Assembly (NCBI GenBank): GCA_001873115.1
Contig: MNYK01000025.1
Coordinates: 1-49,332, forward strand
Direction: 5' to 3'
Origin: Desulfobacterales bacterium CG2_30_60_27
Lineage (GTDB): Bacteria > Desulfobacterota > Desulfobulbia > Desulfobulbales > CG2-30-60-27
Length of the DNA: 49,332 bases
Shown here: piece after piece, positions 1-38,476 of the stretch
How the letters are laid out: each line of letters begins with the position of its first letter
Position numbering within the stretch: position 1 is the first letter of the stretch
Made by a program: the position numbers and the translations under genes
The notes under the pieces: generated by a model
The model's input: the letters and a program-made list of their open reading frames with translations, nothing else
The model's database searches: none
Told to the model about the DNA's origin: nothing

Positions 1-98
1 CGGACGCCTCGGAGGCGGGCAGGACGCCCGCCCCCGCATGAGCGAAAAGTATTTGCAGGCCGGGAACGCTTGACTGCCGACACAAGCTGGATAGTTAC
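1..98. repeat. Right-hand part of a 195-bp MITE-like interspersed repeat (copy 1, cut by window edge)
   Basis: Sequence cggacgcctcggaggcgggcaggacgcccgcc...gctggatagttac matches copies at 14260-14454 and 38282-38476; ends in terminal inverted repeat GCTGGATAGTTAC at 86-98. Confidence 0.85.
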
Positions 99-14124: not shown

Positions 14125-14259
14125 GCCGGCCGGCCGCGGCTGTGGGGCGGTGCGGCCCCACGGCCCAGCCAGATCATGCGCGGCACCAGGGAATTTTTTG
14201 TTTGACAAACCTTTTAGTTTATAGCAATACTGACCAATCTTAAATTGATAAGTAATAAC

Positions 14260-14454
14260 GTAACTATCCAGCAGAACCGCAACCCAGGGGAGTTCCCGGA
14301 CTGGAAATGCTTTTCGCGGGTTCGTCCGCAACCGGGCGCAGGATGCGCAGGAGGTCGCGGACGCCTCGGAGGCGGGCAGGACGCCCGCCGAGAATGAGCG
14401 AAAAGTATTTTCAGTCCGGGAACGATTGACTGCCGACACAAGCTGAATAGTTAC
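14260..14454. mobile_element. 195-bp MITE-like element, copy 2 (IS66-type ends: 5'-GTAA, 8-bp target duplication)
   Basis: TIR GTAACTATCCAGC (14260-14272) and GCTGAATAGTTAC (14442-14454, 1 mismatch); flanked by direct repeat GTAATAAC (14252-14259 and 14455-14462); no CDS inside. Confidence 0.85.
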
Positions 14455-14583
14455 GTAATAACGTGAATTGATAATTCCTCACTCCGCAAATTCCCCAATC
14501 GAAAATTACTGAATCGATAACTGCGTTAGAGGTTCCCCTTTAATCCGGGGACATTGTTGTCAATTTCATCTGGGGGAGACACC

Positions 14584-38281: not shown

Positions 38282-38476
38282 GTAACTATCCAGCAGAACC
38301 GCAACCCAGGGGAGTTCCCGGACTGGAAATGCTTTTCGCGGGTTCGTCCACGACCGGGCGCAGGATGCGCGTGAGGTCGCGGACGCCTCGGAGGCGGGCA
38401 GGACGCCCGCCGAGAATGAGCGAAAAGTATTTTCAGTCCGGGAACGCTTAACTGCCGACACAAGCTGGATAGTTAC
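38282..38476. mobile_element. 195-bp MITE-like element, copy 3
   Basis: Perfect 13-bp TIRs GTAACTATCCAGC / GCTGGATAGTTAC; about 7 differences from copy 2 by eye; no obvious target duplication. Confidence 0.88.

Follow-up and report, generated by a model that had tools for sequence, protein, structure and literature searches.

The window, by which we mean the whole 49,332-nucleotide stretch of DNA analysed, carries three copies of a single short repeat, all of them in the same orientation. Copy 2, an IS66-type MITE of 195 bp, occupies positions 14260-14454 of the forward strand, and is bounded by 13-bp terminal inverted repeats, GTAACTATCCAGC on the left (14260-14272, forward strand) and GCTGAATAGTTAC on the right (14442-14454, forward strand), which are flanked, in turn, by the two copies of a perfect 8-bp target duplication, GTAATAAC, at 14252-14259 and 14455-14462 (unstranded). 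Copy 3 (38282-38476, forward strand) is 96% identical to copy 2 and has no target duplication, and copy 1 (1-98, forward strand) is represented by its right half only, being cut by the start of the contig (C134). The coordinates, the terminal repeats, the nested inner palindromes and the two further copies had all been given in a preliminary description of this DNA, and were recovered exactly as described. The open reading frames (ORFs) listed across the 195 bp are unsupported, and the element has no transposase ORF, as is typical of a MITE.

The repeat and its IS66 partner

The terminal repeats are abundant in the host genome (G000), a 2.5-Mb assembly of 157 contigs, in which 107 forward and 118 reverse ends of the GTAACTATCCAGC type (225 in total) were recovered with up to one mismatch. 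The reversed control pattern matched only once in the same assembly, so the number of ends is far above that expected by chance. Among the copies with both flanks read, at least 13 have exact duplications of 8 or 9 bp, which differ in sequence from site to site. The flanking duplications differ by one base in several further copies, and are missing from several others, including the window copy at 38282-38476. Many of the contigs end within a copy of the element. Plasmids were also searched, and no match to the MITE was found there. Given these multiple dispersed copies in the assembly, together with their target duplications, the 195-bp repeat can be considered to be a real mobile MITE.

This element resembles other bacterial MITEs in being short, multicopy and devoid of genes, with inverted repeats, a duplication, and internal-deletion derivatives (63-187 bp), and differs from them in its covarying, structured interior, which is common to several phyla and to elements with different ends. 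Four of the derivatives in the host genome are 63-bp elements without the interior module, of which at least two have exact duplications of their own, which indicates that movement does not depend on the module in cis. At one further locus (L046, G000:C17:6753-6975), a perfect palindrome of 223 bp lies at a contig end, and is probably an artefact of the assembly, given that its flanks are also inverted.

The preliminary description had also pointed to the possible existence of a full-length IS66 element with the same ends, and one such element was found. The assembly has only one DDE_Tnp_IS66 (PF03050) gene, located in an element of 1729 bp (C93:8804-10532; L058:2305-4033) that has exactly GTAACTATCCAGC at both ends and is flanked on both sides by its own 8-bp duplication, GAATATTT. 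The transposase, of 475 aa, matches PF03050 (E 5.7e-47) and the NCBIfam IS66 transposase NF033517 (E 3.4e-86). The element has one long ORF, and no tnpA or tnpB was seen in it. An ORF extends from the left flank into the left end of this element, and the insertion may have disrupted a gene at this site.

The IS66 family is characterized by ends beginning with GTAA and by 8-bp duplications, both of which are present on the MITE and on the IS66 element. The MITE is similar to the single-transposase (ISBst12-like) type of this family in its GTAA ends, its 8-bp duplication and its identical 13-bp ends, and differs from the insertion sequences, which carry the DDE_Tnp_IS66 transposase, in having no transposase gene and an interior that is not derived from them. 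The derivation of the interior from the IS66 element was ruled out, since the match between the two is limited to the terminal 13-16 bp. The 225 ends, the duplications, the IS66 element with the same ends and the absence of the insertions from a related genome (G001) provide good support for the earlier assignment to a non-autonomous MITE of the IS66 type, which, judging from these shared ends, was very probably moved by the single IS66 transposase of the genome. No description of an IS66 MITE with GTAACTATCCAGC ends was found in a literature search of incomplete coverage. Other Desulfobulbales also have multiple copies of this 13-bp end, mostly on palindromic elements with other interiors, and a sister MITE family in this group (L125, L126, L091, L094, L099 and L103) consists of hairpin elements of 107-135 bp, which have GTAACTATYCAGC ends and an interior of another kind.

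The related genome, G001, is a genus-mate that is about 81-84% identical at the sites compared, and has zero copies of the module. The expectation of empty sites in a close relative was borne out, given that the insertion is absent from two sites in this genome. At the window site, the flanks align on both sides and the 195 bp are absent, although the single GTAATAAC is unreadable, because the junction has diverged there, with an indel. At the second site (C140:4778-4973), where the host copy has the duplication AACCAGAC, the alignment is continuous across the junction and contains a single octamer, AACCAAAG, in which 6/8 bases are the same. The flanks of the copy at 38282-38476 map to different contigs of this genome, in an apparent synteny break, and a rearrangement through MITE copies would possibly explain the missing duplication, as would contig ends. 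The copies that lack duplications, such as this one, could be taken as a sign that the repeats are ancestral, fixed and non-mobile, an idea refuted by the exact duplications at many sites, the complete lack of the module in the genus-mate and its absence at the two sites examined, and one to which we give practically no credence.

A folded module in the interior of the element

In general, MITEs are read as a pair of ends with filler between them. In this element, it is the filler that is conserved, with the stems rewritten pair by pair and the junction and the loops retained; the MITE alone is ordinary, and the interior module is the more interesting part. The interior had been described previously as near-palindromic, and the palindromes are indeed present, but this is not a mere palindrome, and the structured module, which is conserved across phyla, had been missed.

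In the window copy, the module reads on the forward strand. The P1 stem has 26 bp, close to the ~25 bp of most copies elsewhere, with its 5' arm at 14292-14317 and its 3' arm at 14398-14423, and has undergone compensatory changes. The conserved junction CGGGTT (14317-14322; CGGRUU in the family) is followed by the P2 stem (14324-14362), with an apical hairpin, GCGC-AGGAU-GCGC, at 14336-14348, the P3 stem (14365-14392), which comprises a CUC/GAG pairing, a GGA bulge and a hairpin (14371-14389) with the loop C-AGGAC-G, and the conserved junction strand GAGAATGAG (14390-14398). Both loops are of the CsrA type. The fold common to the family is a three-way junction, formed by a P1 of ~25 bp, CGGRUU, a variable P2 hairpin, CUC-GGA-P3 hairpin-GAG, and a conserved AAUGAG.

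This fold is sustained by covariation. In a MAFFT alignment of 21 Desulfobulbales copies, 31/47 pairs have changed on both sides. The alignment of 107 distinct copies from many phyla, which was fitted to the fold model and includes loci chosen in part by the P3 motif, has a compensatory change in 46/47 pairs and 93.8% of its cells paired, against 34-46% in the slid control; the slid controls collapse in both alignments. When the 42 P1 sequence clusters were scored symmetrically, G-U pairs outnumbered A-C pairs by 38 to 8 (p=9e-6), which indicates that one strand is the selected strand. The stems turn over in sequence, with about 0-0.5 bits at most of the P1 and P2 positions, and the junction and loops are conserved, with 1.4-2.0 bits in the P3 loop and the junction strands. 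On the basis of this covariation, the interior of the MITE is a structured, RNA-like module.

A known Rfam RNA was ruled out, since nothing scored above the gathering cut-off, either in the window or, in the case of the module, at 13 relative loci; a weak match to RsmY, an RNA of the CsrB/RsmZ type, reached 14.1 bits against a cut-off of 57 bits. The P1 arms differ between copies and are unusually long in one of them, as might be expected if P1 were an inverted duplication of the target, but most P1 stems, in nearly all lineages, measure about 25 bp, and amplified families share one P1, both of which argue against such an origin. In the exceptional copy, from a Halorhodospira MAG (L176), the P1 arms reach 59 bp and are near-perfect past the first bases, perhaps because flanking DNA was recently duplicated in inverted form.

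The simplest of the rival explanations is an ordinary IS66-type MITE in which the palindrome is neutral and stays in register through hairpin-templated repair, and the loops have no function. Long hairpins can be homogenised through template switching, and this explanation is compatible with all of the mobility data, including the transposition of the core-less derivatives, as well as with the 59-bp P1 in one copy and the lack of an orientation bias among the copies. It is, even so, rather unlikely, because the repair of a DNA palindrome would not be expected to give G-U an advantage over A-C on one strand, nor should loops and junctions stay conserved amid the turnover of the stems, or the fold persist across phyla.

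Distribution of the module among phyla and vehicles

The central ~85 bp of the element are also present, without the GTAACTATCCAGC ends, in Desulfurivibrio genomes. Among the matches listed in a motif scan, which come mostly from metagenome assemblies, the module is found in the Desulfobulbales, Nitrospirota, Nitrospinota, Spirochaetes, SAR324, Omnitrophota and Parcubacteria. Its distribution is patchy, in that a model search recovered it from 9/297 genomes of the phylum, usually in high copy number, with near relatives that do not have it. The genome of the cultured Desulfurivibrio alkaliphilus (G005) has 38 matches. The vehicles also vary. In both the host genome and 'bacterium OS_PC_MetaG.mb.142' (L168, L185), the module lies between ends of the GTAACTATYCASC type with exact 8-bp duplications. 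The Desulfurivibrio copies are bounded by CAGGGCAACGTCAAAGTC-type ends, and one of them (L090) has a clear duplication of 10 bp, CATGATCACC. Candidate ends in other lineages, read by eye, look like ACCTAAATTGAGCG or TGTCCGGTAAA. The module occurs, then, inside elements with several kinds of terminal repeats.

No match to the module motif was found in viral contigs, and no account of a module of this kind came to light in a literature search of incomplete coverage. A neighbour gene marking an autonomous form was ruled out, given that no gene recurs within 2.5 kb of the module, as was a cis-regulatory element with a fixed orientation, since the copies have no preferred orientation relative to the neighbouring genes. 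In one Nitrospirota assembly (M_MetaBat.26, L223), 7-8 copies of the module, some in each orientation, are clustered in a stretch of about 7 kb. Several copies in Desulfurivibrio (L079, L084/L194, L090, L202) are located inside long ORFs (of 1028 and 884 aa, for example), where they might be in-frame inserts.

The recurrence of the module in mobile elements with different ends, and the preference for one strand, are also what might be expected if the module worked as folded single-stranded DNA and, through recognition by a transposase or a replication factor, aided the spread of the element. The Y1/RAYT enzymes recognise REP hairpins, and Y1 transposases are widespread in the order. These transposases are found, however, in 53/58 relatives, nearly all of which lack the module, which has no recurrent neighbour gene, and the core-less derivatives transpose in any case. 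Recognition as single-stranded DNA would, moreover, leave unexplained why the loops match CsrA sites and track csrA, and we consider it to be unlikely. The module is similar to the REP/BIME repeats moved by RAYT (Y1) enzymes in consisting of dispersed hairpin repeats in intergenic DNA, and differs from them in the lack of a linked Y1 gene, in its 8-bp duplications and DDE-type ends, and in its three-way junction of ~130 nt, in contrast with the short REP. A REP/RAYT system proper was ruled out, given that Y1 genes are near-universal in the order and the module is not, and that no Y1 gene is linked to it.

Loops of the CsrA type and the proposed role of the module

A high-affinity CsrA/RsmE site is an A(N)GGAX loop set on a stem (PMC4005645). 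CsrB carries CAGGA(U/A/C)G repeats, SELEX gave the consensus RUACARGGAUGU, and a single CsrA dimer bridges sites that are 10-63 nt apart (PMC7652899). In the module, GGA is present in the P3 loop of 65/74 distinct copies, most commonly as CAGGATG and CATGGATG, and the loop consensus, CA(N)GGA(U)G, is the CsrB/CsrA-site motif. The P2 apical loop also has a GGA in 32/42 clusters. In the window copy, the loops are AGGAU and AGGAC, with their GGAs 35 nt apart, within the range bridged by a dimer. The P3 stem is a very stable 7-bp hairpin, which is perhaps not ideal for CsrA (PMC7652899).

The csrA gene was found in 30/39 of the genomes, whether module-bearing or comparison, including the host (G000), G005, G027 and G023. 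A GGA in the P3 loop is found in 27/28 of the genomes with csrA and in 4/9 of those in which csrA was undetected (Fisher p=0.0016), a correlation that is phylogenetically confounded, with few independent contrasts, because four of the csrA-less genomes are Parcubacteria. Two of the four csrA-undetected genomes with GGA (L161, L225) are probably incomplete assemblies of the Desulfurivibrio type. There are exceptions in both directions, with csrA and no GGA in L207, and GGA with no csrA found in L208. The A(N)GGAX P3 loops are present in 4/4 of the multicopy genomes newly found by the model search. In the Parcubacteria, the fold is kept with no CsrA-type P3 loop, which implies that CsrA cannot be the sole role of the fold.

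The module is similar to the CsrA sponge RNAs of the CsrB/RsmZ type in its A(N)GGAX apical loops on hairpins, and differs from them in that each unit has two loops only, and is dispersed in high copy number in transposable elements; no promoter was found inside the element, and no U-run after the stem, as in an intrinsic terminator.

The persistence of the fold in the Parcubacteria, where csrA was not found, is the kind of pattern expected of an RNA recognised by a factor other than CsrA, whether RNase III, another RNA-binding protein or a terminator or insulator that softens the effects of the insertions, with the GGA loops being incidental. The constancy of P1, at about 25 bp in nearly all lineages, and the junction strands, as the most conserved part, would also fit. 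Against this, the two loops match the CsrA site independently and are for the most part absent from genomes in which csrA was not found, and the terminator form lacks a U-run 3' of the stem, which makes this explanation improbable.

We lean slightly, then, towards a MITE of the IS66 type, mobilised in trans, that carries a separate, strand-specific RNA module, which would be bound by CsrA when transcribed. The IS66-family transposase would recognise the common GTAACTATCCAGC ends, mobilise the MITE in trans and leave the 8-bp duplication. The interior would be a distinct three-way-junction RNA, with the junction CGGRUU / CUC-GGA / GAGAAUGAG and the hairpins P2 and P3, which has spread between phyla within elements bearing different kinds of ends. 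The A(N)GGAX loops of P2 and P3 could be bridged by one CsrA dimer, and a module read into transcripts would then, most likely, serve as a CsrA site, either local or titrating. Of the steps in this explanation, the one involving CsrA is the weakest.

If CsrA does bind the module, a transposable element would be distributing ready-made sites for a global regulator, and the spread of such regulons between genomes would become directly testable. More tentatively, this may be an undescribed mobile RNA module, acquired by MITEs with several unrelated kinds of ends and transported across bacterial phyla, that seeds tens of CsrA sites per genome and rewires post-transcriptional regulation. In two genomes of one genus (G106:C6:3241-3350, L279, and G143:C4:28312-28421, L280), the module is present as a single copy, in which P3 is short and lacks the GGA loop; these two copies are apparently orthologous, and may represent a vestige or a domesticated copy.
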